Shown piece after piece: positions 3,162-28,789 of a stretch of 33,048 bases of DNA. The position numbers and the translations under genes were made by a program. The first letter of the stretch is position 1. Each line of letters opens with the position of its first letter. The notes beneath the pieces are model-generated. The model was given only the letters and a program-made list of their open reading frames with translations, was not told where the DNA came from and did not search any database. This DNA is from a virus, in IMG/VR virus record IMGVR_UViG_3300009149_000153, positions 1-33,048 of that record; one strand, 5' to 3'.

Positions 3162-4846
3162 ACCGTTTTAAGCGCAAGCCGACAGCCGTGCCGCAAACCG
3201 CGGTCGAGCCTACGAGCTACGGGTTTTCACACACCGCGGTCGAGTACAACGCCGCACCGGTGGAAGCCTACGCGCCTGAGGGGTACGGGTACTCGGGGTC
3301 ATATTTCAACGTCAACGACGGTGAGAAGTACGCAGGGGGCCTCGGCCCCGTGCCGATCACCGTCACTGACTACTGGGCGCTGCGTGAGCGTTCCGCGTCG
3401 TTTTTCAAAACCAATCTTTACGCGCGCGGCATTATCCGCAGATTCGTAACCAACGTAATCAACACCGGCTTGTCCCTAGAAGCGGACCCAATCGAGAACC
3501 TGATCCCCAACGTCGCGGACGACAGTCTGTCGGAGTGGGCGATCGATGTCGAGGACAAGTTCAGCGCGTGGGCCTCCTTGTCAGACGTCTGCCACTTCAG
3601 CGGGCAGCACACGTTTGGCGAGATCGAGCGCTACGCGTACCGCGAGGCCCTTATCGAGGGCGACGTGCTGGTGGTCGAGCACCACAACGCCAAGACCCAA
3701 CTGCCAAGTTACGAACTGATCAAGGGCAACCTGGTGCAGTCCCCGCTCGGCTCGCTTGGGGAAGGGCTAGGGCTGGCCAAGGGCAACACAATCGAACACG
3801 GCGTCGAGCTAGACGCCAACCGCAGACCCGTCGCATATTGGGTCGTACAGCGAGACTTTAAGCACAAGCGCATCCCCGCCCGCGGCAGTCGCGGCAGGCT
3901 GGTGTCGTGGTTGTATTTTGCCACAGACAAACGCCACGACGACGTCCGCGGCGAGCCCCTGGTGTCCTTGTGTATGCAATCCGTCGGCGAGATCGACAAG
4001 TACCGCGACAGCACGCAGCGCAAAGCGACACTAAACGCCATGCTCGCGATGTTCTTCTACCAATCGCCCGAGAGCAAAGTGCCAAACAGCCGCCCGATCA
4101 CCGCTGGTGCAAACCGACGGGTGCAGGGTAGCACGCAGTTAGCAGACGGCAGCGAGTACAAGCTCAATATTGCCAGCTCTACACCAGGCATCGTATACGA
4201 GTCACTGCCGCCGGGCATGGAGCCAAAGGGCTTCACGAGCGACGGCACCGACGAGAAGTTCGGCGACTTTGAGGACGCGGTCATCAACGGCATAGCGTGG
4301 GGGCTCGGGATACCTAAGTCCGTGTTGACTATGATGTTTAGCAATTCATACAGCGCAAGCCGAGGCGAGATCAAAGAATTTAACATGACGCTGGGCGTCG
4401 AGCGTAACCGATTCGCGGACACGTTCACGCGCCTGGTGTACCGCTCGTGGCTCGTGGCCATGACGCTGACGCGCCGCATAGACGCGCCGGGCATGTTGGA
4501 GGCGTACCGCGACCCGATGAAGTTCGACACGTACGCAGCGTGGACCAATTCCAATTGGTTCGGCGCGGTTAAAGAGGCGGTCGACCTACCGAAGGAAGTC
4601 AAAGGGCTGGAGATGATGGCCGCGAACGGGTACTCGACCAACAGCATGAACAGCCGCCAGCTAACCAATACCCGATTTACAACAAACATTAAACGCGTGG
4701 CACGTGAGAACAAACTCAAAGCGGACGCCATGCGCCCAACACTCGAACTAGAGAAAGAGTACGGCGCGGAGCAAGTGGCCGCCGTCGGGGCTAAACTCCA
4801 ACTGGTCGCAAACTCAGGAGACGAAGACGCATGGCTAGAACAGTGA
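3146..4846 (+). CDS. Portal protein, lambda gpB family
   Basis: A 566-aa portal of the lambda family (gpB is 533 aa). It forms the dodecameric ring at the head vertex through which DNA enters and leaves, and it nucleates procapsid assembly. Family features are the N-terminal FFKTNLYARGIIRRFVTNVI helix region, a DVLVVEH-containing clip and wing region, and a conserved IPKSVLTMMFSNSYSASRGE segment in the crown-proximal part. The GTG at 3146 is preferred over an in-frame start 57 bases upstream because the G-rich TGGGGGG precedes it at the right distance and the resulting N-terminus begins ASILDRFKRKP. It overlaps the joiner gene by 16 bases and the next gene by 16 bases. Confidence 0.94.
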   Translation: MASILDRFKRKPTAVPQTAVEPTSYGFSHTAVEYNAAPVEAYAPEGYGYSGSYFNVNDGEKYAGGLGPVPITVTDYWALRERSASFFKTNLYARGIIRRFVTNVINTGLSLEADPIENLIPNVADDSLSEWAIDVEDKFSAWASLSDVCHFSGQHTFGEIERYAYREALIEGDVLVVEHHNAKTQLPSYELIKGNLVQSPLGSLGEGLGLAKGNTIEHGVELDANRRPVAYWVVQRDFKHKRIPARGSRGRLVSWLYFATDKRHDDVRGEPLVSLCMQSVGEIDKYRDSTQRKATLNAMLAMFFYQSPESKVPNSRPITAGANRRVQGSTQLADGSEYKLNIASSTPGIVYESLPPGMEPKGFTSDGTDEKFGDFEDAVINGIAWGLGIPKSVLTMMFSNSYSASRGEIKEFNMTLGVERNRFADTFTRLVYRSWLVAMTLTRRIDAPGMLEAYRDPMKFDTYAAWTNSNWFGAVKEAVDLPKEVKGLEMMAANGYSTNSMNSRQLTNTRFTTNIKRVARENKLKADAMRPTLELEKEYGAEQVAAVGAKLQLVANSGDEDAWLEQ

Positions 4847-5073
4847 TCACATTAACGGACGCCTGGCAGCAGGTGGCGGCGGGGGCATGTGTTTTGCGCG
4901 TGGCGTCGACAGGGGGCCGCGCGCTGGCCAAGATAAGCCTAAACCAGACGGCCAGCGACGTTGCAGCAACGGAGGACTTGATGTCCCCCGGTGCGCAGTA
5001 CGCCCAGAACGAGGCAAAGCCCGTTTTTGCCAAGGGTGCGGACGTGATTGTAGTCGTCGACACGGCGGGGTAA
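4831..5073 (+). CDS. Small virion-region protein of unknown function
   Basis: An 80-aa protein not recognised by family. It starts with ATG after a clear AGGAG, inside the last codons of the portal gene, so it is co-translated with the portal. The composition suggests a compact beta-rich fold (alternating hydrophobics at ITLTDAWQQV, CVLRVAS and DVIVVVDTAG) with a single Cys in the middle and no membrane segment. Lambda has no gene at this place, but many other phages carry small beta proteins between portal and protease. A head accessory or decoration role is a guess from location. Confidence 0.7.
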   Translation: MARTVITLTDAWQQVAAGACVLRVASTGGRALAKISLNQTASDVAATEDLMSPGAQYAQNEAKPVFAKGADVIVVVDTAG

Positions 5074-5077
5074 AGAC

Positions 5078-5647
5078 ATGATTCTCAAGCTTGATAAAAT
5101 CAACGCCATTCTAGGCGGACTTCTCGGCGCCGGCCAAGCGTCCGCGCCCTTCAACGGCACCCCCGCAAACGTGCTCGTGTCAAACGGCAACGTCGCGGGC
5201 ACGGTGGTCACTGCGGGCACTAACGTATTTGTGATCGCTAACCTAACTAACGACCTATTACCACCCGCACCCGGGTACGACGCGTACTTCGACTCGGCCG
5301 CGGCAGGCAAGGCCATGATTAAGTGCATAGCGCCGACAACGCAATCGTACCGCATCGACTTTAGCGGGACAGTTGTCGCAGCTAACCCTGCGACTGTTGA
5401 CGGGGCGCTAGTCGTTAATATTGAAAGTAGCTTAGGATTGGGCAATGTGTTCACCGGCGGGACTAAGCCTTACCCGCTCGGTCCCGGTCGAGGGCCTACC
5501 CCGTCGTCGACTGGCATTTCGGTAACGGTTTACGGGTCAATACAGAACGGTGAGGTGTTGTTCTTTAGGTTATCATCGAACAGGGCGGACACGCTAACGC
5601 TAACCGACCTGATAGTTATCGCCACGGTGATCAAGCCGGCGGCGTAA
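5078..5647 (+). CDS. Hypothetical head-module protein, possible accessory structural protein
   Basis: A 189-aa protein, not recognised. The N-terminal 20 residues form an amphipathic helix (MILKLDKINAILGGLLG). The rest is rich in Gly, Thr, Val and Asn with many short beta-like stretches, plus a flexible Gly/Pro/Ser loop near residue 135. This profile fits a secreted-type or virion-surface beta-sandwich rather than an enzyme. It begins four bases after the preceding stop and is followed by a strong AAGGAGG before the protease gene, so it belongs to the head operon. An accessory head fibre or decoration function is possible but unproven. Confidence 0.65.
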   Translation: MILKLDKINAILGGLLGAGQASAPFNGTPANVLVSNGNVAGTVVTAGTNVFVIANLTNDLLPPAPGYDAYFDSAAAGKAMIKCIAPTTQSYRIDFSGTVVAANPATVDGALVVNIESSLGLGNVFTGGTKPYPLGPGRGPTPSSTGISVTVYGSIQNGEVLFFRLSSNRADTLTLTDLIVIATVIKPAA

Positions 5648-5677
5648 AACCACACATCAAATTAAGGAGGCCCGGCA

Positions 5678-6835
5678 ATGCCTTGGCTATTAGACCCAAC
5701 TGTGCAACAAGCACTAGAAGCGGCCCAACCGCTAACACAGGCGCAGATCGACACGGCCATGGCTGCACTGGGCGGCCCAAGTGGTAACGCTGACCGCGTG
5801 CTAGTGACGTCCGGCGACTCCGCGACTATCAGCATTACAGGCGTGATGACCTCGCGCCCGTCGTGGATGGCGTTCTACTTCGGCGGGGGTAACACCCTCT
5901 ACGGCGACTTAGCAGCGGCGATCAACACAGTCGAAATGGACCCGAACATTAAGTCGGTGGACTTCCTCGTCAACTCAGGCGGGGGCGAAGCGCAACCGGC
6001 TGTCGACCTGGGAGACATGATCGCAGGCATGAAGAAACCGACACGCGCCCTAGTGCAAACGGCGGCGAGTGCGGCATACTGGGCGGCGTCACAGGCGGAC
6101 ACCGTCGTGGCGCTTAGTCGCGCGAGTCGCGTCGGCTCAATCGGGGCGGCGACAATGGCATACAAGCCGAGCGCGCAGTCCGTGGTCGACATCGCCAGCA
6201 CGAACGCCCCAAACAAGCGCCCAGACCCAGAAACAGCGGAAGGCCTCGCGGTCATACGCGCGGAGCTGGACGAGTTCCACGACCTTTTTGCCACGGCGGT
6301 GGCGGTAGGGCGTGACAAATCAATCGAAACGGTTAATAATACATTCGGACGCGGCGGCATGATGCTGGCGCAGAAAGCCCTCGAGGCCGGGATGATCGAC
6401 TCGATATGCATTCAAGAATCAAAACCCAAGGCGAAAGCCTCAGCAACAGGAGCCATGACAATGGATCTAGCAACACTACAGGCCCAGCACCCGGCGCTTC
6501 ACGCCCAGGTATTAGCGGAAGGCCACAAGCAGGGCGTGGCGGCAGAGCTAGACCGCGCCAAGTTCCACGCAAAGATGGGCACTAAAACCGGTGCAGTCGC
6601 AGTCGCGATGGCAGCTATCGCCGCGGGCACCGCAAAAGACGACGGCGAAACGATGGCGGAGTACCTAACGTGCAACGCTAACAACGCCGATTTAGCAGGC
6701 CGCCTGGCTGACGAGCAAGCGCTCGCAGGCAACGCCCCCGCAGCGGAAGACGAAGGCGTCAAGCAGAAGTTAGTCGCAGACGCTGCGACCAACGCCGCAT
6801 TGGCTGCCCTTGGCTTAGAACCGGTAGGAGCGTAA
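5678..6835 (+). CDS. Head maturation protease, S49 (SppA/gpC-like), with C-terminal scaffold region
   Basis: A 385-aa protein with an S49 peptidase domain at about 40-250 and a scaffold-like C-terminal extension. The oxyanion-region SGGG lies at 100-103. The probable nucleophile is Ser131 in TAASAAYWAA, matching the AS-GG-Y type motif of SppA and lambda gpC. VGSIGA (152-157) follows as usual. Lys180 in APNKRPDP is the best candidate for the general base. The protease would cleave scaffold and portal-associated proteins during procapsid maturation. Residues 262-385 are Ala/Gln/Glu-rich and helical and can also be made alone from an internal start, as in lambda C/Nu3. The strong AAGGAGG at 5664-5670 fixes the ATG. 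The decoration gene follows at once. Confidence 0.92.
   Translation: MPWLLDPTVQQALEAAQPLTQAQIDTAMAALGGPSGNADRVLVTSGDSATISITGVMTSRPSWMAFYFGGGNTLYGDLAAAINTVEMDPNIKSVDFLVNSGGGEAQPAVDLGDMIAGMKKPTRALVQTAASAAYWAASQADTVVALSRASRVGSIGAATMAYKPSAQSVVDIASTNAPNKRPDPETAEGLAVIRAELDEFHDLFATAVAVGRDKSIETVNNTFGRGGMMLAQKALEAGMIDSICIQESKPKAKASATGAMTMDLATLQAQHPALHAQVLAEGHKQGVAAELDRAKFHAKMGTKTGAVAVAMAAIAAGTAKDDGETMAEYLTCNANNADLAGRLADEQALAGNAPAAEDEGVKQKLVADAATNAALAALGLEPVGA
6461..6835 (+). CDS. Nested scaffold protein, internal in-frame start of the protease gene
   Basis: An ATG at codon 262 of the protease gene is preceded by AGGAG at 6448-6452, eight bases away. Initiation there would give a 124-aa protein that is the protease's C-terminal part. 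It begins MDLATLQAQHPALHAQVL and is charged, Ala-rich and probably alpha-helical. In lambda, Nu3 scaffold is made in exactly this way from the 3' end of gene C. Another ATG two bases after the AGGAG is too close to be favoured. The ribosome binding site and the precedent support the call; independent expression is inferred. Confidence 0.65.
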   Translation: MDLATLQAQHPALHAQVLAEGHKQGVAAELDRAKFHAKMGTKTGAVAVAMAAIAAGTAKDDGETMAEYLTCNANNADLAGRLADEQALAGNAPAAEDEGVKQKLVADAATNAALAALGLEPVGA

Positions 6836-6838
6836 ATC

Positions 6839-7228
6839 ATGGCTAATATCAACATTTCAAACCGCAAACTAAACGGCGTCGTCATCCTCGGCCCCGTGTT
6901 TGCAGACGCGACGCTGACTGCAGCGGGCGCAGGGACCTGGCCCGCGGGCGCAGTCCTTGGCAAAGTTACCGCCACAGGCAAGTATGTGCGATACACCACG
7001 GGCGCGGCTGACGGTTCGGAAGTACCAAAAGCGGTACTGACGCAGGCCGTAGAGTTCACCGCAGCGGGCGACCGCTCAGAACGCCCAGCGATCAGCGGCC
7101 AAGTTCGACGCGGCGACCCAGTCGACGGCGCAGGCGCGGCACTAACGGACGCGGCAATCGACCAGCTTCGCGACTTCACCATCATTGCACTGACTACGCA
7201 CCAGCAGTCAGCCCAAGATAACCAATAA
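6839..7228 (+). CDS. Head decoration protein, lambda gpD family
   Basis: A 129-aa protein (lambda gpD is 110 aa) between protease/scaffold and major capsid, the same order as lambda. The sequence follows the gpD pattern: a variable Asn-rich N-terminus, a beta-rich core with PAGAVLGKVTATGKYVRYT, and a C-terminal part containing AILTQAVEF-like text (here AVLTQAVEFTAAG) and a helix (DAAIDQLRDF). gpD trimers sit on the local three-fold axes of the expanded shell and stabilise it against internal DNA pressure. GTAGGAG lies just upstream of the ATG. The C-terminal Gln-rich tail (HQQSAQDNQ) is probably disordered. Confidence 0.88.
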   Translation: MANINISNRKLNGVVILGPVFADATLTAAGAGTWPAGAVLGKVTATGKYVRYTTGAADGSEVPKAVLTQAVEFTAAGDRSERPAISGQVRRGDPVDGAGAALTDAAIDQLRDFTIIALTTHQQSAQDNQ

Positions 7229-7242
7229 GGGAGGGCGCCCAA

Positions 7243-8325
7243 ATGCCTAATATTTTCGCAACAGGCTGGATGATGTTGTTCCAGCAAATGCGCCGCCCGA
7301 CGGGTGCGCTTCAAGCACTGTTTACGGTCAAGCCTGGCAACGTCTACGACGGCGACAAGGTCGAGATCGACATTCAGCGTTTTGGCGAAAAGGTAGCGGT
7401 GGCATTACGTCGCGGCACCGGTTCTAACCTGAACGACGCGGACATCGTGACGACTAAAGAGTTTACGCCCCCAACATACGGCGAAGCCTTCCCTGCAGAT
7501 GTTGCCGACCTGGTGAACCGTACCGCGGGTGTTGACCCGTACACGGACGGGTACGCAGGATACATGGGCAAGTTGATGGGCAAGCTGATGACGTATTTCA
7601 TGCTGTCTATGGACATGGTCACCCGTGGCGTCGAATTGCAGGCGTCGCAGATCCTGCAGACGGGCAAGTTAGTGTTAACCGGCTACGACGGCAACACGGT
7701 GTACGAGCTTGACTTCAAGCCAAAGGCGACGCACTTCCCTACCACGGGCACGGCGTGGTCGGCAGCAGGTAGCGACAAGCTGGGCGACTTAGAAGCCCTA
7801 GGCGACGTTATTCGCGCAGACGGCAAAGTCAATCCGACAGACCTATGGTTCGGCGCGACAGCCATGCGATTGTTTAAAGCTGACGAAGAAGTGCAGAAGC
7901 AGTTAGACAACCGCCGCATGTCCATCGGTGAAATCATGCCACGCCAAATGAACACGGGCGCAGTATACCAGGGCACGGTATGGATCGGCTCGTACGAGTA
8001 CCGCATGTGGACGTACCCGGAAGGCTACGAGAACCCGCAGACGGGCACGTACACGAAGTACATTGCAGACGACAAGGTGATCATGACGTCAGACCAGACA
8101 CGCTTTGACCGCACGTCGGCACGCATCCCGCTACCGCTTGGGCCTGACCCACGCCTAGCGAGTTTGGTGCCAGGCCGTATGACGGACCGCAGCATGGACT
8201 TAGACGTCACGCCAAACTTGTGGTGTACACCTAGCGGCGAACAGATCATGACGGACCTCAAGTCCCGCGTGCTCCTTGTTCCTGTTCAGATCGACGGCTT
8301 CGGCTGTTTAGACACCAACCCATAA
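7243..8325 (+). CDS. Major capsid protein, lambda gpE family (HK97 fold)
   Basis: A 360-aa major head protein (gpE is 341 aa). Features of the family are the TGALQALFTVKPG start, the spine and E-loop region with TTKEFTPPTYGEAFPADVAD, and the C-terminal part with SDQTRFDRTSARIPLPLGPD and the PVQIDGFGCLD ending. There is no N-terminal scaffold domain, which agrees with a separate scaffold. The ATG is preceded by GGGAGGG. A GC-rich hairpin follows the stop at 8333-8356, which may set the mRNA level relative to the genes downstream. Confidence 0.93.
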   Translation: MPNIFATGWMMLFQQMRRPTGALQALFTVKPGNVYDGDKVEIDIQRFGEKVAVALRRGTGSNLNDADIVTTKEFTPPTYGEAFPADVADLVNRTAGVDPYTDGYAGYMGKLMGKLMTYFMLSMDMVTRGVELQASQILQTGKLVLTGYDGNTVYELDFKPKATHFPTTGTAWSAAGSDKLGDLEALGDVIRADGKVNPTDLWFGATAMRLFKADEEVQKQLDNRRMSIGEIMPRQMNTGAVYQGTVWIGSYEYRMWTYPEGYENPQTGTYTKYIADDKVIMTSDQTRFDRTSARIPLPLGPDPRLASLVPGRMTDRSMDLDVTPNLWCTPSGEQIMTDLKSRVLLVPVQIDGFGCLDTNP

Positions 8326-8332
8326 ACCATAG

Positions 8333-8356
8333 GCGGCCCGCTCCCACAGGGGCCGC
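8333..8356 (+). other. GC-rich stem-loop after the major capsid gene
   Basis: GCGGCCC (8333-8339) can pair perfectly with GGGCCGC (8350-8356) around a 10-base loop. The direct repeat ACCATAGG flanks it (8326-8333 and 8360-8367). There is no T-run, so this is not a standard rho-independent terminator. It could be an mRNA-stabilising hairpin or a weak attenuator after the most highly expressed gene. Confidence 0.4.
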
Positions 8357-8377
8357 GATACCATAGGGGCTAGACCG

Positions 8378-8746
8378 ATGGCAAGTAACAAAGAACTAAT
8401 CGCGAACATCTTGGCGATCAACCCGTCCGCAGTCACGGAAGGGCTAACCAACGCACAGTTGTCTGAAATGGTCAAGGGGCTTAAGGGCTCCGACGCAGCA
8501 GCGGCGCAAGCCGATGAAGACGCAGCCGCACAGGCACTGGCAGACGCAGCAGCGGCGCAAGCCGATGAAGACGCAGCCGCACAGGCACTGGCAGACGCGG
8601 AAAAGCCGTACACGGTGGCGAAGGGCAAGGCGATCACGTCAAAACGCGGCATTTTGTCAGACGGCGACGAGGTTCGCGCGTCGGACTTCGCAGGCGGTGA
8701 CGAAGCGTTCGCGGCGTTGTGCAAAAAAGGCCACATCGTCCGATGA
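8378..8746 (+). CDS. gpFI-like head protein with internal tandem repeat (putative)
   Basis: A 122-aa protein after the capsid gene, where lambda has FI (132 aa), a protein that helps bring DNA-terminase complexes to proheads. The N-terminal 35 residues form a small helical domain (ASNKELIANILAINPSAV). The middle is an acidic Ala/Gln/Asp/Glu stretch made of two identical 17-residue units. The last 45 residues look like a small basic/beta domain (KPYTVAKGKAITSKRG) ending in CKKGHIVR. FI has a similar layout of an N-terminal helical part, an Ala-rich middle and a C-terminal domain, but sequence similarity could not be measured. The stop overlaps the next start as ATGA. Confidence 0.6.
   Translation: MASNKELIANILAINPSAVTEGLTNAQLSEMVKGLKGSDAAAAQADEDAAAQALADAAAAQADEDAAAQALADAEKPYTVAKGKAITSKRGILSDGDEVRASDFAGGDEAFAALCKKGHIVR
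8492..8593 (+). repeat. Perfect 51-bp tandem duplication within the FI-like gene
   Basis: Bases 8492-8542 are repeated without mismatch at 8543-8593. Each copy encodes 17 residues of an acidic, Ala-rich linker, so the reading frame is kept. Perfect identity suggests a recent duplication or ongoing length variation. Confidence 0.9.
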
Positions 8747-9126
8747 ACCTGCGACAGCTAGCCGAGCAAGACCTGGCCGTCACGCTAGAGGATAGCGTGT
8801 TCGGTTTCGGCTGGCCTGTTACGTTAACCGATCCGCAAGGCGTGTCGGCTAACCTAACGGGACAAGCGCATGACATTAGCCAGATCATCGACCCAGACAC
8901 GGGCACCGCGGTCAGCGGGCGTTCGTGTGCGTTCGTTATCAGACAGTCGAGCCTCGCAGCCACCGGCCTGGGGGACCCTTACGGCGTCCCCGACAGCAAC
9001 TCGCTGCCGTGGCTCGTGTCGTTTGAAAGCATCAACGGCGCGCCGTACACTTTCAAAGTCGAGGACTCAGACGCGGACCGCGTTCTGGGGACACGCACGC
9101 TAGTCTTGGGGGTGTGGAATGGCTAA
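8743..9126 (+). CDS. Head-tail connector or completion protein (putative)
   Basis: A 127-aa protein starting in the ATGA overlap with the preceding gene. An in-frame ATG-less extension upstream is unlikely. The sequence is mostly beta (FGWPVTLTDPQG, CAFVIRQSS, LPWLVSFES, YTFKVEDSD, TRTLVLGVWNG). This resembles the beta-barrel head-tail connectors such as lambda gpFII, which is of similar size (117 aa) and sits at the same place. It would attach beneath the gpW-like protein and form the docking surface for the tail. It overlaps the next gene by eight bases. Function is assigned by position and secondary structure only. Confidence 0.6.
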   Translation: MNLRQLAEQDLAVTLEDSVFGFGWPVTLTDPQGVSANLTGQAHDISQIIDPDTGTAVSGRSCAFVIRQSSLAATGLGDPYGVPDSNSLPWLVSFESINGAPYTFKVEDSDADRVLGTRTLVLGVWNG

Positions 9127-9781
9127 CATAACGCAGCTAATAGACAAGCAGGACGTTTTCGAGGTAGTCCGCGACAAGATAGCGGTGATCCTCGCTGACG
9201 AATCGGCCATGCAAGTGCAACTTGCGACGGCTGCCGGAAAGCCAGACCCCAGCCTGTGGGCGCTTAAAGTCTATACAGAGCGGGCGTCCCCTTGGGACGA
9301 CGCGGCGGACGGGGACATTATCGTTAACGTGTGGTTTGACACGGCTTCGGTCGACGAGGCGGCGTCCAACACCGTGCGCAACCAAACGATGCGCGGGACG
9401 TTCAACATCGATGTGATCGGCTTCGGTAACTCCAAGCCTAACGGCACCGGAGGCCACCGGCCAGGCGACGAAGTTGCGGCGCTTAATGCCCAGCGCGGCC
9501 TGCGTCTGGTGCGCAACATCATCATGGCTAGCAGCTACACGTATTTAGGCCTGCGCACAATCGTCGGTCAACGGATGCCGCAGTCTATTACCTCGTTTCA
9601 GCCGCAGTTGAACAGTACGCCCGCGGATCACGTCGTTGGCGCCCGACTGGCGCTCGGGGTACGATATGAAGAATTTTCGCCCCAGTTCGAGCCCGCAATA
9701 CTGCAAGAGCTGGGCGTCAGAGTAGAACGGGCAGAGGACGGGCAAGTCCTGGCCCAATTAGATTACGACTATACACCATAA
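9119..9781 (+). CDS. Tail terminator or tail completion protein (putative)
   Basis: A 220-aa protein between the connector and the tail sheath, the usual place for the protein that caps the tail tube and joins it to the head (lambda gpU/gpZ; Mu gp37 region). The N-terminal region is an amphipathic helix (DVFEVVRDKIAVILADESA). The body mixes beta strands (GDIIVNVWFD, RGTFNIDVIGFGN) with a long helix (DEVAALNAQRGLRLVRNIIM). This is the alpha/beta pattern typical of tail terminators, and the YEEFSP segment near the end is common in such proteins. It starts in an eight-base overlap with the previous gene. The family is inferred. Confidence 0.6.
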   Translation: MANITQLIDKQDVFEVVRDKIAVILADESAMQVQLATAAGKPDPSLWALKVYTERASPWDDAADGDIIVNVWFDTASVDEAASNTVRNQTMRGTFNIDVIGFGNSKPNGTGGHRPGDEVAALNAQRGLRLVRNIIMASSYTYLGLRTIVGQRMPQSITSFQPQLNSTPADHVVGARLALGVRYEEFSPQFEPAILQELGVRVERAEDGQVLAQLDYDYTP

Positions 9782-23938: not shown

Positions 23939-26671
23939 TTAATCCTTCTGATAACGTTTATGTCGCCAGCCTGCGGCCTTGAGCGGCCACCAGCTAGCCC
24001 ATGTGGGCGACTGCCCAAGTATTGCGCACATCTCGTCAACTGACCCGACACCCTCGGGCACTTCGCAACACAGCTCGTCGTGTGTGTGCATAACGACGGG
24101 GTAGCCCGCCGCCTCTGCCCTGAGTATGGCCTCGGCCTGGATGTCGGCGCAAACGGCCTGTGTGACGTTCTCCGCTAGCCTGCCGCCGTAGGTCTCCATG
24201 CGCCCCCACCCCCGTGCCCCGTTCTTCGGGTTCGAGTTAAAGCCCATGAAGGTGAGCGAGTAGCTTGCGGGCTTGCCCCACTTGCCCGCGACCTCGACCA
24301 ACTGCGGGTCGTGGTATGCCAACAAGCGGCCGGACGGCAGGCGACAATACAGTACGCGATTGTGCACGCCGTAGCATATATCGTTAGCCCAGAACTGTTG
24401 GCCAGGGTGCAGGACGGCTTGAACCGCTGCGCCTTCTAGGCCGAAGTATTCCGGGTGCCCGTCTGATAGGCGCGGGCCTGTCTGCCTAAACTGGCCTCCC
24501 CAAAACTCGACGATCTCCGGGCTTTCTGCGCGCCAGGCTAAAACGTTCTTTTTAATCTCGGCCTCGTCCATGAACTGATCCGCGCCGAACGCACACCACG
24601 CACCGACCCAGCCGCCGTACCCTGACGCCAGCTCTGCAACTTTGCCGATCGTCTTCCTTGTGGGGTGGTGCATGCGGGTGTCTTTCTTGTACTGCATCAT
24701 GTCTTCAAACGGCACGCCGGTGATCTTACTAGCGGACATCTCGTAGATCTTGCCGTGGGTCTTGAATACGTCGATGCGCCACTGGCAGCGCGACAGGCAG
24801 GCGAGGGCGACAGCCTCGACCGCTGAGAAGTCGCAGCATATAAAGTCGTGCCCCGGTTTGGCGACGAACAGCCCGCGCAAGCAGCCGCAAAGTAGGTCGA
24901 CCGGGCTGCCCCAACGGTGCATCACGGTGGCGAAGTCGTGGCGGATAATGTCCTGTACTGCGTATTCGACGGCCCCGACGGTCCACTCGCGGCGGTCGTG
25001 GCAGAGGAACGACCCACACTCGGGGCAATCTGCCAAGCACGCGCCAAAGATGCGCCCGCACGCTTCACACTCGCGGGTCTTGGGCCCTTTGGCCGTGATG
25101 TTCTGCAACTGGCTGTTGCTGGCGTTATCGTCGGCCGCGGCGCTTGACCATCGGCCTGTACGTTCTGCCCCGCAGTACATGTACTGGTTGCGCAAACGTC
25201 CGTCGCTGTTTAGCTGGTGGCGTAACTTGGCCAGCTTCTTGACATTGGCCGAGGATAGTGCCTGCCTGGTCTGCAACACCCGCACGCAGTCCGCTGGCCC
25301 TGCGGTCAACAGCCCCAGCGCTTCGTCTACACTTTCCGACGTCATGTCGCGCATACGGACGCCGCGGCTCCCGAGCCATGCGATCATCTTGGCCACTTCG
25401 CTGGCGGTGCTCACCTCGCCGTTAGTGATTTGGCGCAGCTCCGCGGTGAAGTGGGCGGTTGTTTCTTGTAGCAGGCGCAGGCAAGCCTCAAGGGCGGGGA
25501 CGTCGACAAGTACACCCCGCGCGTTGATCCGCTGGTCCGCAAGCCACACGGCGCGCTCGTAGTCTGTCAAGTCGGGGATCATGGCTGCGACATCGTCCTC
25601 GGCCTCGACGTCCTGGTCACAGTAGCTAAACAGGCCCTGGAACAGCGGCCAGTCGGTTGGCATGGTGCGGCGCACGTTCTTGCGGGTCTTGGTGACGGTG
25701 TTCGGTCTGCACAGCTTGCCGATAAGCTGGCCGCCCTCTTTGTCCTTGCCCTTGGTGCCCAGTGCTTTCGATACGTTCGCCAGGCTGCCCGGTAAGCCCC
25801 AACGCCGCGCCATTGACATAACGCAATATGTTTGCTCGACTGCCAGCACGGGCCACCCATAAAGGCGGGTACAGACAAAGTTCCATATAAAAAATTCAAA
25901 GGTGCTGTTAAACGCCTCAATGTCGCCGCCGCCCGCAATGTGGGTCAGCAGGTCAACCGGTTGCGGCATTCCTGGCCACCAGCCCCGACGGCCTTTGCCG
26001 TCTTTCAAATCGTAGAACAGGCACAACACCTCGGTGCTCGGGTGCTCGGCGTAGACGCCTGTGCCGACTAAGCCCAGCCCGTTGGTGCTGCCGCCGCCTG
26101 CGCCCTTGACCTTGCCGTCCTCGGTGATCACGAAGCCTGCCTCGCTGTACGTCTCGAAGTCCATGGACGGACGGACGGTCGAGCGGTACGTGCCGACGTT
26201 CTCGATCACCGTGCCCGCTAGCAGGTCAGACAGCGCGACGGGGTCGCAGCCCTCCTCCCAGTCTGACGCCGCCCAGAACACGGAGTCCGACGCGTCGTGC
26301 GCCCACAGGCGAGACACTGGCAGGACGTACTCGACGCGGTGGACGTGCACGGGCTTGCCCAGTGACTGCATGTACTCGATCATGTGGCGTGTGCCCGAGC
26401 TCTGACCGTCCCACACCGCGAGGAGGGCGTCGGCTTCGTGGGCCATGTCCTCGTTGCGTGCGAAACCTGCGCTTTTACCTAAAGGCCCGTCCCAGTCCGC
26501 CGGGTGACTGCTTACCGGTAGGCCGAAGTGTTGGGCGTACTCACGGCCGTGGGTGTCAGGCCCTCGGGCCTCGCCGCACACCACCGCGGTGATCTTCCAC
26601 GGACACGCATTGACGGCCGCCGCGGTGTCTTGTTGGGTCAGGGTCCGCGTGCCTGCAATGATTGTTTTCAT
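23939..26671 (-). CDS. DUF2493 (SLOG)-exonuclease-family A DNA polymerase fusion
   Basis: A 910-aa replicative polymerase. Residues 1-112 form a DUF2493/SLOG domain (KTIIAGTRTLT, GEARGPDTHG, KSAGFARNEDM, DGQSSGTRHMI). Such domains bind nucleotides or nucleotide-derived signals. The proofreading domain has D171/E173 (SMDFET), N255 and E258 (FNSTFE) and Y350-x3-D354. The polymerase domain has RTGRW at 504-508, motif A D614 (CDFSAVE), an O-helix R672..K677..L681..Y685, and motif C H864-D865-E866. Leu681 occupies the place of Phe762 in E. coli Pol I. Between RTGRW and motif A lies a zinc-ribbon-like insertion (C535xxC538, C549xxC552). The ATG at 26671 overlaps the upstream stop as ATGA; an in-frame ATG 12 bases earlier is possible. 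Confidence 0.93.
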   Translation of the reverse strand: MKTIIAGTRTLTQQDTAAAVNACPWKITAVVCGEARGPDTHGREYAQHFGLPVSSHPADWDGPLGKSAGFARNEDMAHEADALLAVWDGQSSGTRHMIEYMQSLGKPVHVHRVEYVLPVSRLWAHDASDSVFWAASDWEEGCDPVALSDLLAGTVIENVGTYRSTVRPSMDFETYSEAGFVITEDGKVKGAGGGSTNGLGLVGTGVYAEHPSTEVLCLFYDLKDGKGRRGWWPGMPQPVDLLTHIAGGGDIEAFNSTFEFFIWNFVCTRLYGWPVLAVEQTYCVMSMARRWGLPGSLANVSKALGTKGKDKEGGQLIGKLCRPNTVTKTRKNVRRTMPTDWPLFQGLFSYCDQDVEAEDDVAAMIPDLTDYERAVWLADQRINARGVLVDVPALEACLRLLQETTAHFTAELRQITNGEVSTASEVAKMIAWLGSRGVRMRDMTSESVDEALGLLTAGPADCVRVLQTRQALSSANVKKLAKLRHQLNSDGRLRNQYMYCGAERTGRWSSAAADDNASNSQLQNITAKGPKTRECEACGRIFGACLADCPECGSFLCHDRREWTVGAVEYAVQDIIRHDFATVMHRWGSPVDLLCGCLRGLFVAKPGHDFICCDFSAVEAVALACLSRCQWRIDVFKTHGKIYEMSASKITGVPFEDMMQYKKDTRMHHPTRKTIGKVAELASGYGGWVGAWCAFGADQFMDEAEIKKNVLAWRAESPEIVEFWGGQFRQTGPRLSDGHPEYFGLEGAAVQAVLHPGQQFWANDICYGVHNRVLYCRLPSGRLLAYHDPQLVEVAGKWGKPASYSLTFMGFNSNPKNGARGWGRMETYGGRLAENVTQAVCADIQAEAILRAEAAGYPVVMHTHDELCCEVPEGVGSVDEMCAILGQSPTWASWWPLKAAGWRHKRYQKD

Positions 26672-27084
26672 AGGTCCACCCATGTGTATTTGTCGTGAAC
26701 GGCGTGCCGGCCCAAGTCGGCCCCGTGCTCCGCGTCAAGTACGAGGTCCTCCAACGCCTTCGACCTCAAGAATGCCAGCGCCTGCGTGTTGCGGGCAACC
26801 TGCAGCTCTAAGTGGCGCGCTTGGCTCACTTTTCGTTTGCGGTACGCACGCAGCGCCGAGAGCCTGTCGACGTGGCAAAACGACCGCTCTGCGCCTTTCT
26901 TGACTTTCTTGATCATCCCCGCGTCGACGTACCTCGCGAACTCATCTTTTTTAAGCGGCGCGTACCCAACGAGGGAAACCCAGCAAAAATGGGAGGTCTC
27001 CGACACGACACGGAACGACCTGAGCACGAGGTGCACGGACTTGTGGTCGATGGCGTCCTCGTACCGGTACATGTACTTGGCCAT
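26668..27084 (-). CDS. Unknown protein of the replication operon
   Basis: A 138-aa protein directly upstream of and overlapping the polymerase gene. The N-terminal half is mixed (YMYRYEDAIDHKSVHLVLRS, then SHFCWVSLVGYAPLKKDEFA). The middle has a winged-helix-like or basic helical section (RYVDAGMIKKVKKGAERSF). The C-terminal half is helical and Arg/Ala-rich (SALRAYRKRKVSQARHLELQ), ending in an acidic/His stretch. It may bind DNA or the polymerase, but no known family was recognised. GGGGG lies eight bases before the ATG. Coupling to the polymerase start is the main clue to its role. Confidence 0.72.
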   Translation of the reverse strand: MAKYMYRYEDAIDHKSVHLVLRSFRVVSETSHFCWVSLVGYAPLKKDEFARYVDAGMIKKVKKGAERSFCHVDRLSALRAYRKRKVSQARHLELQVARNTQALAFLRSKALEDLVLDAEHGADLGRHAVHDKYTWVDL

Positions 27085-27087
27085 ATG

Positions 27088-27294
27088 TCACCCCCAGATC
27101 CAGTTTAGCGCAATAGTAGACGCGCGGACTTTGCCCATAAAGCCACGACCGCGCAGCATGACAAAATTCGCGTTACCCACTTCGGTGGGCCCTGCGGACG
27201 AGCTGGTGGTCGTCACTAACTGGGCGTTTTTGCTTAGTATTAAGTTGCCGCTGGCGTCTAACTGCGTCTTGCCTTTTTTCTTAAAGTAGTGCAT
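27088..27294 (-). CDS. Small unknown basic protein
   Basis: A 68-aa protein with AAGGA nine bases upstream, three bases before the next gene. The N-terminus is strongly basic (MHYFKKKGKTQLDASGN). The middle is Ser/Thr/Asn-rich (LVTTTSSSAGPTEVG) and the C-terminus hydrophobic and beta-like (ANFVMLRGRGFMGKVRAS), ending in NWIWG. No family recognised. Its place between the clamp-like protein and the polymerase suggests a replication accessory role, which is inference. Confidence 0.65.
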   Translation of the reverse strand: MHYFKKKGKTQLDASGNLILSKNAQLVTTTSSSAGPTEVGNANFVMLRGRGFMGKVRASTIALNWIWG

Positions 27295-27306: not shown

Positions 27307-27855
27307 TTATAGTCTGCAAGCGAGCACATACACGTTCACCGGCCCGCGGGTGAGGCGGACCCCCGCGTCATACAGGTTGAACTCCGCGGCGGGGAATTTG
27401 GCGTCCACACCCACGGCCGCCATCGCGTTGCACGCCTGCGCCGCTAGTTTAACGTTAAGCCCTAATGTGCACACGGGGGTGTTAGGGGGGCGCATGGTAC
27501 TCGTTGCCCGTGTTAGGTCCGGGTATCGGCCGTCGACCGTGGCTACCGGCACGGCCTGCCCGAGCTCGCGCCCCCCGTCCATTTGTTGCAGAAGGGCGCC
27601 TCCTTCCGGCAGCACTCGCAGCTCAATGTCACTTTTTGCGGTAAACATTTTTAACTTTACCGCCAGGTCCTGCCGGCAGAGTAGGACTTCCGCCACCCCC
27701 GCAGGCATTTTCGTGTCGGTGTCGACCTGCATGCCGAGGTGGCCGTCCGACGCTTGCATGCGCGTGGCCGTGACGTGAACCGCGTTTAAGTAAAACCGGT
27801 TGTCCTGTTTCGCGGCGACAGTTAGAAGCCCTTTTAATGTGGTAAACGTGTTCAT
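27307..27855 (-). CDS. DnaN-like sliding clamp-type protein (tentative)
   Basis: A 182-aa protein, first gene of the polymerase operon. The segments RFYLNAVHVTATRMQASDGH and PVATVDGRYPDLTRAT resemble parts of beta-clamp repeats: a residue-of-interest D-G-H after strand pairs, and a G-x-YPD-type turn. The rest is a run of alternating hydrophobic strands (SDIELRVLPEGGALLQQ, NVKLAAQACNAMAAV). Full-length bacterial beta is ~370 aa, so this would be a half-size clamp subunit or a divergent homologue. GGGAG precedes the ATG. Without a structural comparison the call is tentative; a different beta-rich DNA-binding protein remains possible. Confidence 0.45.
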   Translation of the reverse strand: MNTFTTLKGLLTVAAKQDNRFYLNAVHVTATRMQASDGHLGMQVDTDTKMPAGVAEVLLCRQDLAVKLKMFTAKSDIELRVLPEGGALLQQMDGGRELGQAVPVATVDGRYPDLTRATSTMRPPNTPVCTLGLNVKLAAQACNAMAAVGVDAKFPAAEFNLYDAGVRLTRGPVNVYVLACRL

Positions 27856-27967: not shown

Positions 27968-28789
27968 CTACTGTTGAGGCATCCAGCTAGCGTTTTGCTG
28001 AGGGGCTGGCGCTTGCTGTGGCTGTTGGCCCCATGCTTGCTGCGGTTGGCCTTGGGCAGGTGCCGCTTGCTGTGGCTGTTGGCCCCATGCTTGCTGCGGT
28101 TGGCCTTGGGCAGGTGCCGCTTGCTGTGGCTGTTGGCCCCATGCTTGCTGCGGTTGGCCTTGAGCGGGTGCCGCTTGCTGTGGCGGTTGGCCCCATGCTT
28201 GCTGCGGTTGGCCTTGAGCGGATGCCGCTTGCTGTGGCTGACCGCCCCACACTTTGGTGGTGTCGAACGTACCGCCGCCGCCAATGTCTAAGCGTGGCGC
28301 GTTTTCGCTGGTCAAAATGCGGATAGCGTCCAGGCGAGTGGCCACGCCTTTTGACACGTTGTTGTAAGTGTTGCAGTGCAAGATCACATCGACGCGCTGG
28401 CCGTTGTAGATCAGCGGGCCGTACTCATGCGGCTGCAGCGTGTTGCCGTTCTCGCCGACAACTTGAGGCTGGCGGAACGTCGACACGTTGATCACTGCAT
28501 GGCCGGGGAACATGCCTTTAAATTCGTCATTACCTACGTTACCGATCGGCATGTTGCCGCCGCGGGGTAGATTGCCCTTGAACTCACCCTCGAACAGTTC
28601 GCGCTGGGCCAACTGGTCAAGGACTGGCAAGTCTGGGTTATTCGGCTCAAGCACGATCTTAAGATTCCACTTCATGCCGGGCGCTTTGCCGTCTTTAGCT
28701 TCTAAGGCTTCCGGGCGGGTGATACCGTCCCACACTACGATACCGCGGCAGACGACCATGTTCTTTGGGCTTTCGTTTAATAACGGCAT
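27968..28789 (-). CDS. DUF2815-like single-stranded DNA-binding protein with Gln/Pro repeat tail
   Basis: A 273-aa protein. Residues 1-~180 match the DUF2815 layout of phage ssDNA-binding proteins with an OB fold: WDGITRPEALEAKDGK near the start, KWNLKIVLEPNNPD, PGHAVINVSTFRQPQVV, and YNGQRVDVILHCNTYNN before SKGVATRLDAIRIL. Residues ~182-273 are a disordered tail of four near-identical 18-residue units rich in Gln, Pro, Ala and Trp (APAQGQPQQAWGQQPQQA). It lacks the acidic tip found in bacterial SSB proteins, ending instead in NASWMPQQ. It would protect and organise single-stranded DNA during replication. GGAG overlaps the end of the DUF2800 gene just upstream. Confidence 0.85.
   Translation of the reverse strand: MPLLNESPKNMVVCRGIVVWDGITRPEALEAKDGKAPGMKWNLKIVLEPNNPDLPVLDQLAQRELFEGEFKGNLPRGGNMPIGNVGNDEFKGMFPGHAVINVSTFRQPQVVGENGNTLQPHEYGPLIYNGQRVDVILHCNTYNNVSKGVATRLDAIRILTSENAPRLDIGGGGTFDTTKVWGGQPQQAASAQGQPQQAWGQPPQQAAPAQGQPQQAWGQQPQQAAPAQGQPQQAWGQQPQQAAPAQGQPQQAWGQQPQQAPAPQQNASWMPQQ
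28022..28237 (-). repeat. Four 54-bp tandem repeats in the ssDNA-binding protein tail
   Basis: Units begin at 28022, 28076, 28130 and 28184 and differ by a few bases. Each encodes 18 residues, so the frame is preserved. The first two units are the most alike; the last two carry point changes. This is a coding minisatellite, not a CRISPR array. Confidence 0.92.

Follow-up and report, generated by a model that had tools for sequence, protein, structure and literature searches.

What is a nucleotide-binding type of domain doing at the front of a phage replicase? The question is raised by a locus in the window, the whole stretch of 33,048 nucleotides analysed here, a 33-kb IMG/VR virus contig, where a YAcAr/DUF2493 SLOG domain appears to be fused to a proofreading family A DNA polymerase. 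The fusion proves to be real.

A single reading frame joins the SLOG domain and the polymerase

The fusion gene runs on the minus strand from an ATG at 26671 to a stop codon at 23939-23941 (Table 1). The original prediction had the interval right and its strand is corrected here to minus, a plus-strand reading being ruled out by many stops. Its claim that both parts lie in one frame holds, as the frame is open from 26671 to 23939 with no stop between them. The start codon is preceded by a Shine-Dalgarno-like GGGUGGA (-5.8 kcal/mol) and overlaps the stop of the upstream 138-aa ORF in an ATGA, which implies translational coupling. A search for a SLOG-less polymerase made from an internal start revealed no start codon that was both consistently placed and preceded by a strong ribosome-binding site.

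Table 1. Features of the fusion locus and its upstream neighbours.
Feature	Coordinates	Strand	Basis or remark
SLOG-exonuclease-polymerase fusion protein P0001, 910 aa	23939..26671	-	Open frame; recurs in 8 more phages
YAcAr/DUF2493 SLOG domain, residues 1-112	26336..26671	-	phrog_289; PF10686 in homologues; AF2 model
Linker, residues 113-167	26171..26335	-	Aligns with N-terminal extension of unfused polymerases
DEDDy-type 3'-5' exonuclease domain (predicted), residues 168-366	25574..26170	-	Exo motifs; Glu259 in Exo II
Family A polymerase domain, residues 367-910	23942..25573	-	PF00476; phrog_17; fold
CxxC...CxxC insert, putative zinc ribbon, residues 535-552	25016..25069	-	Alignment
138-aa ORF, phrog_13631 (unknown function)	26668..27084	-	Stop overlaps fusion ATG
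Conserved 68-aa gene	27088..27294	-	Directly before polymerase in unfused SFCi1 and AeroV_348

The 68-aa gene lies one ORF further upstream of the polymerase in the window than in SFCi1, with the 138-aa ORF between; no homologue of the latter was seen at the SFCi1 locus. Beyond these genes, a 182-aa protein (27307-27855, minus strand) matches phrog_3007 ('RusA-like'), while its homologue in the IMG/VR contig L014 also matches a 'DNA polymerase' PHROG; it may in truth be clamp-like, the RusA label being a misannotation. A gene at 27968-28789 (minus strand) encodes a single-stranded DNA-binding protein of Enc34/Gp2.5-like type with a C-terminal tail of Q/P/A-rich repeats (QGQPQQAWGQ...).

The exonuclease-polymerase body is of the Leu762 type

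Residues 169-874 match phrog_17 (DNA polymerase, E=2e-91), PF00476 is matched above its cut-off (E=3.7e-9), and the model of the polymerase part adopts the Bst/Klenow fold (Z 29). The polymerase motifs A, B and C that had been claimed are all in place (D614/E619, K677/L681/Y685 and H864-D865-E866, respectively), with D614, E619, K677, D865 and E866 invariant in 57 alignment rows. Leu681 in motif B occupies the position of E. coli residue 762 and assigns the enzyme to the Leu762 polymerases, a major virioplankton type (PMC6302109). The exonuclease motifs had been described as complete; this is true of Exo I (D171/E173) and Exo III (Y350-x3-D354), both canonical, but not of Exo II (N255-x2-F258-E259), in which Glu259 replaces the Asp and is invariant in the family. 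On these motifs, 3'-5' exonuclease activity is predicted.

The four-cysteine insert, flanked by the RTGRW region on one side and the palm on the other, is unusual for family A; each Cys is kept in 51-53 of the 57 rows, and 4-5 rows are gapped. Two distinct conserved sites of the polymerase carry intein-like insertions: one follows RLAEN in SFCi1 (L001, ORF 5992-9318), and the other lies within motif B (ELA|...HNSGYGGW) in 97.13 and L014 (L003, 5896-9471; L014, 4270-7890). A DpoZ/Z-genome polymerase was also considered and rejected, as no PurZ/PF00709 was found in the 12 relatives scanned, of which some may be fragments; against the DpoZ NCBIfam model, the fusion of contig L080 scored 15 bits (cut-off 500), and the other fusions scanned gave no match.

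The N-terminal domain is a SLOG domain with a conserved putative ligand pocket

The assignment of residues 1-112 to DUF2493/SLOG is supported by a match to phrog_289 (E=4.8e-25) and by the motifs IIAGxR, GxAxGxD, W60, AGxxRNxxM and WDGxSxGT. Its own match to PF10686 (YAcAr, formerly DUF2493) falls short of the curated cut-off, both for the whole protein (E=0.0047) and for the domain alone (E=2.1e-4); all 71 close homologues match this family (best 1.2e-19), and 33 of the 71 match the DprA Pfam family.

The AlphaFold (AF2) model of the domain is a SLOG fold of high confidence (pLDDT 96.5), Rossmannoid with a five-stranded core (predicted elements E2-7, H13-21, E29-32, H38-49, E53-55, H65-79, E82-87, H92-103 and E108-112). 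SLOG proteins head the list of structural matches with Z-scores of 8.8-11.7, the best solved neighbours being a Moco carrier protein (11.7), DprA (11.5), YpsA (11.3), ShosA (11.2) and the SLOG domain of ThsA (10.0); absence of other SLOG clades from this list does not exclude those clades. Searching the PDB by sequence with the domain gave no convincing match.

The putative ligand pocket is highly conserved. G37-x-D39, corresponding to the GxD/E ligand-binding motif described for the YpsA-like clade (PMC6459960), is invariant in the 71 homologues; the binding-loop residues I4, A6, G7, R9, G33, G37, D39, A68, R72, N73, M76, S91 and G93 are invariant too. The catalytic Glu by which LOG-type phosphoribohydrolases (PGGxGTxxE) are recognized is missing: residue 96, at its position, is His in 52 homologues, Asn in 9, Asp in 7, Met in 2 and Ser in 1, and Glu in 0 of 71. 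Since the catalytic residue is missing while the binding loops are invariant, ligand binding is likelier than cleavage.

Recurrent gain and loss of the SLOG domain at one site

A survey by tblastn and pattern scans, bearing on how often the two domains are joined, found the full fusion in nine phages: the window, five other IMG/VR contigs (L014, L080, L081, L096 and L217) and the isolates PY6, 97.13 and 367.14. These nine independent genomes, with a single annotated CDS in isolate PY6, rule out an assembly chimera, a sequencing error or chance. The majority of the polymerase relatives are unfused, and SLOG domains of this kind are, as first stated, usually free-standing in phages: 589 phage records contain SLOG matches, most fetched homologues are genes of 110-140 aa, and a free SLOG occurs at 95 fetched loci, some of which overlap. 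Among 14 relatives in bacterial genomes, none had a match reaching residues 1-112.

In a tree of 49 polymerases, built by a quick method with SH-aLRT support only, the fused state has to change six times, and branches with good support force every one of these changes. A single clade of fused SLOGs is rejected (AU p=0.036), a result of modest weight given the few columns. The SLOG of the window clusters with the L014 and L080 SLOGs (100/98), whereas the L080 polymerase falls with PD0307 and with the pair 97.13/367.14. These differing groupings indicate that the SLOG domain has probably been transferred between polymerase backbones.

Close pairs show the event itself. The polymerases of L080 (fused) and PD0307 (unfused) are 95.2% identical and their flanking DNA 88-89%, and the two differ by an in-frame SLOG insertion of about 360 bp at the start codon. 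At the same start-codon site, L081 (fused) has a short ORF and a SLOG that AeroV_348 (unfused) lacks, their polymerases being 97.5% identical. The SFCi1 polymerase, 80% identical to that of the window, lacks the SLOG and directly follows the 68-aa gene. The whole genomes of SFCi1, AeroV_348 and PD0307 were searched and contain no SLOG, ruling out that these sisters carry the domain unfused. In two further metagenomic contigs a separate SLOG gene precedes the polymerase gene, immediately in L218 and by about 0.9 kb in L204; in both, the polymerase frame is itself split. The SLOG domain has thus been joined to or lost from the polymerase repeatedly, in the same slot, with at least six state changes.

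The interruption in the L218 polymerase gene (4342-7710) is a DNA methyltransferase ORF (5183-6193). A different domain, with an ASDGHRAH-type motif, is also associated with the polymerase N-terminus: it is fused in CKB-S1, in VP16C it lies on an N-terminal frame that overlaps that of the polymerase, and SppYZU01 has it as a separate gene immediately upstream (coordinates 5485-6000 in L005, 5455-6000 in L012 and 5264-5872 in L011). By eye this domain is faintly sliding-clamp-like; it has no convincing Pfam match.

A predicted flexible linker separates the two parts

In the alignment, the linker carries a GTG-coded Val where the SFCi1 polymerase has its start ATG. The full-length model is confident for the SLOG and polymerase parts, and pLDDT falls below 50 at residues 114-120 and 138-143 of the linker, which is accordingly predicted to be disordered and flexible. 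In a comparison of the window with L014, the SLOG has a dN/dS of about 0.10, the exonuclease 0.13 and the linker about 0.5, rough values given fairly divergent synonymous sites. The SLOG domain is under strong purifying selection, and the linker is relaxed.

Possible functions of the fused SLOG domain

We favour, at a probability of roughly 0.4, the view that the SLOG domain is an accessory module binding a ligand, probably of NAD+/ADP-ribose type, and that it either modulates the replicase or keeps the ligand sequestered; we infer the binding, the identity of the ligand and the effect on the polymerase alike. A Leu762-type family A replicase gene would have gained a YAcAr-type SLOG at its 5' end. 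Flexibly tethered to the polymerase as an optional accessory, the domain would most likely offer a non-catalytic pocket to a ligand derived from a nucleotide, probably one related to NAD+ or ADP-ribose. Its likeliest use would be to let replication respond to the ligand during infection, for instance when host immune signals arise or the nucleotide state shifts, and its second likeliest to sequester the ligand. Gating of the polymerase by a ligand through the SLOG domain, as first proposed, is possible but, with a linker predicted to be disordered, uncertain; the domain is nevertheless an accessory and not an obligatory gate, because polymerases 95-97.5% identical do without it.

The ADP-ribose-type assignment is probable by analogy with free-standing relatives. 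A close homologue in phiEco32 adjoins a macro-domain gene, and another in the early region of KP8 lies among DUF4326 and an ADP-ribosylglycohydrolase-annotated gene. These neighbourhoods match the NAD+/ADPr counter-immune network proposed in PMC9503650, which also suggests, for other phage fusions, that the SLOG senses NAD+/ADPr derivatives. In Vibrio phage H188, another close free-standing homologue belongs to a replication module, with a Cas4-like exonuclease on one side and a helicase on the other. Macro, NADAR and DUF4326 domains were sought in the fused phages, several of whose records may be fragments, and none was found, so the ADPr link rests on the free-standing relatives. A more specific version, in which a plug-in SLOG lets the replicase directly detect a nucleotide of host immunity or metabolism (such as a cADPR isomer or the NAD+ state) so that defence signalling switches replication, is a conceivable but unlikely extension.

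Among the alternatives, the SLOG domain might be a counter-defence sponge that sequesters a host immune nucleotide, fused for expression only and leaving the polymerase unregulated. Its presence or absence amid DNA about 90% identical resembles anti-defence cargo, the predicted flexible linker and the early ADPr-related neighbours of the KP8 homologue fit, and known sponges, Tad1 for one, act by sequestration (PMC12043709). However, recurrent in-frame joining to a polymerase specifically needs a reason beyond expression, PADLOC returned no match, and the fused phages yielded none of the ADPr-related domains named above. A pure sponge is rather unlikely.

A DNA-binding or processivity module, in which a DprA-like domain holds single-stranded DNA or the primer-template for the polymerase, is suggested by the nature of the partner, by DprA being among the closest solved folds and by the homologues that match its Pfam family. 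Charge points the other way: eight of the nine fused SLOGs have a pI of 5.0-6.7, whereas the free-standing ones are basic, with a median of 8.8. Near-identical polymerases also lack the SLOG, and we consider such a module improbable. Equally hard to credit is a neutral joining, in which loss of a stop codon merged a small neighbouring gene, with a function of its own, into the polymerase gene, leaving a fusion that itself means nothing. The free SLOG gene abutting the polymerase gene in L218, the separate folding of the two parts and the relaxed linker would agree with it; against it stand the six or more changes of fused state, the nine fused genomes versus two distinct contigs with separate but nearby genes, and the unfused sisters, which lack any SLOG instead of carrying it unfused. 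Enzymatic clean-up, the other half of the original proposal, by which the SLOG would hydrolyse a nucleotide glycosidic bond near the polymerase (LOG or deoxyribosyltransferase type), is very improbable: the superfamily does include LOG N-glycosidases, according to PMC9503650, and there is a weak structural likeness to DNPH1/deoxyribosyltransferases, but its Z of about 7 lies inside the unrelated background of the search and the Glu of the LOG GT-x-E motif is missing in all 71 homologues.

Comparison with known SLOG systems

The fusion has partial parallels in several known systems. Sporadic phage SLOG fusions are treated as 'SLOG sensor-activated systems' in section 3.7.4 and Fig. 5i of PMC9503650, with HTH, HNH, 3'-5' exonuclease, SF1 helicase and guanylate kinase partners; the likeness lies in the coupling of a SLOG with a phage enzyme of nucleic-acid metabolism, and the difference in that the partner here is a complete exonuclease-polymerase and the joining is recurrent. 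The text of PMC9503650 names no DNA polymerase as a SLOG partner, although the '3'-5' exonuclease' of its figure might include one, and our literature search found no report of a SLOG-DNA polymerase fusion. Free phage YAcAr/DUF2493 proteins (phrog_289; phiEco32 gp35, KP8 gp14) are about 45-46% identical to the fused domain over 107-110 residues but are small, mostly basic and carry no polymerase. Conversely, SFCi1/PD0307/AeroV_348/VP16-type polymerases share the Leu762 exonuclease-polymerase body, about 45-80% identical to that of the window, without the SLOG, while CKB-S1 has its different N-terminal extension.

ThsA of the Thoeris system (SIR2-SLOG) likewise carries the SLOG fold (Z 8.8-10.0) on an enzymatic domain. 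Its SLOG binds cADPR isomers, and the structures matched include forms with gcADPR/cADPR. However, identity is about 10%, and ThsA is an NADase effector of bacterial defence, not a phage replicase. DprA/Smf and ShosA share the fold and are top structural matches to the fused SLOG; in contrast, fused SLOGs are mostly not basic.

YAcAr/SLOG proteins abound in phages, and they are proposed to act against NAD+/ADP-ribose immune signals. Here the domain is attached to an enzyme with an easily measured activity, and natural pairs with and without it, at 95-97.5% polymerase identity, make its role in replication testable. Ligand, allostery, DNA binding and anti-defence effects are each directly testable and would inform hundreds of free-standing homologues. 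Two other kinds of SLOG fusion were noted among the loci, one in L182 (3959-4720) with a C-terminal FGSNLxGxHGAGAA domain, possibly macro-like by eye, and one in L063 (5998-7107) with a region that is possibly ASCH-like, again by eye.
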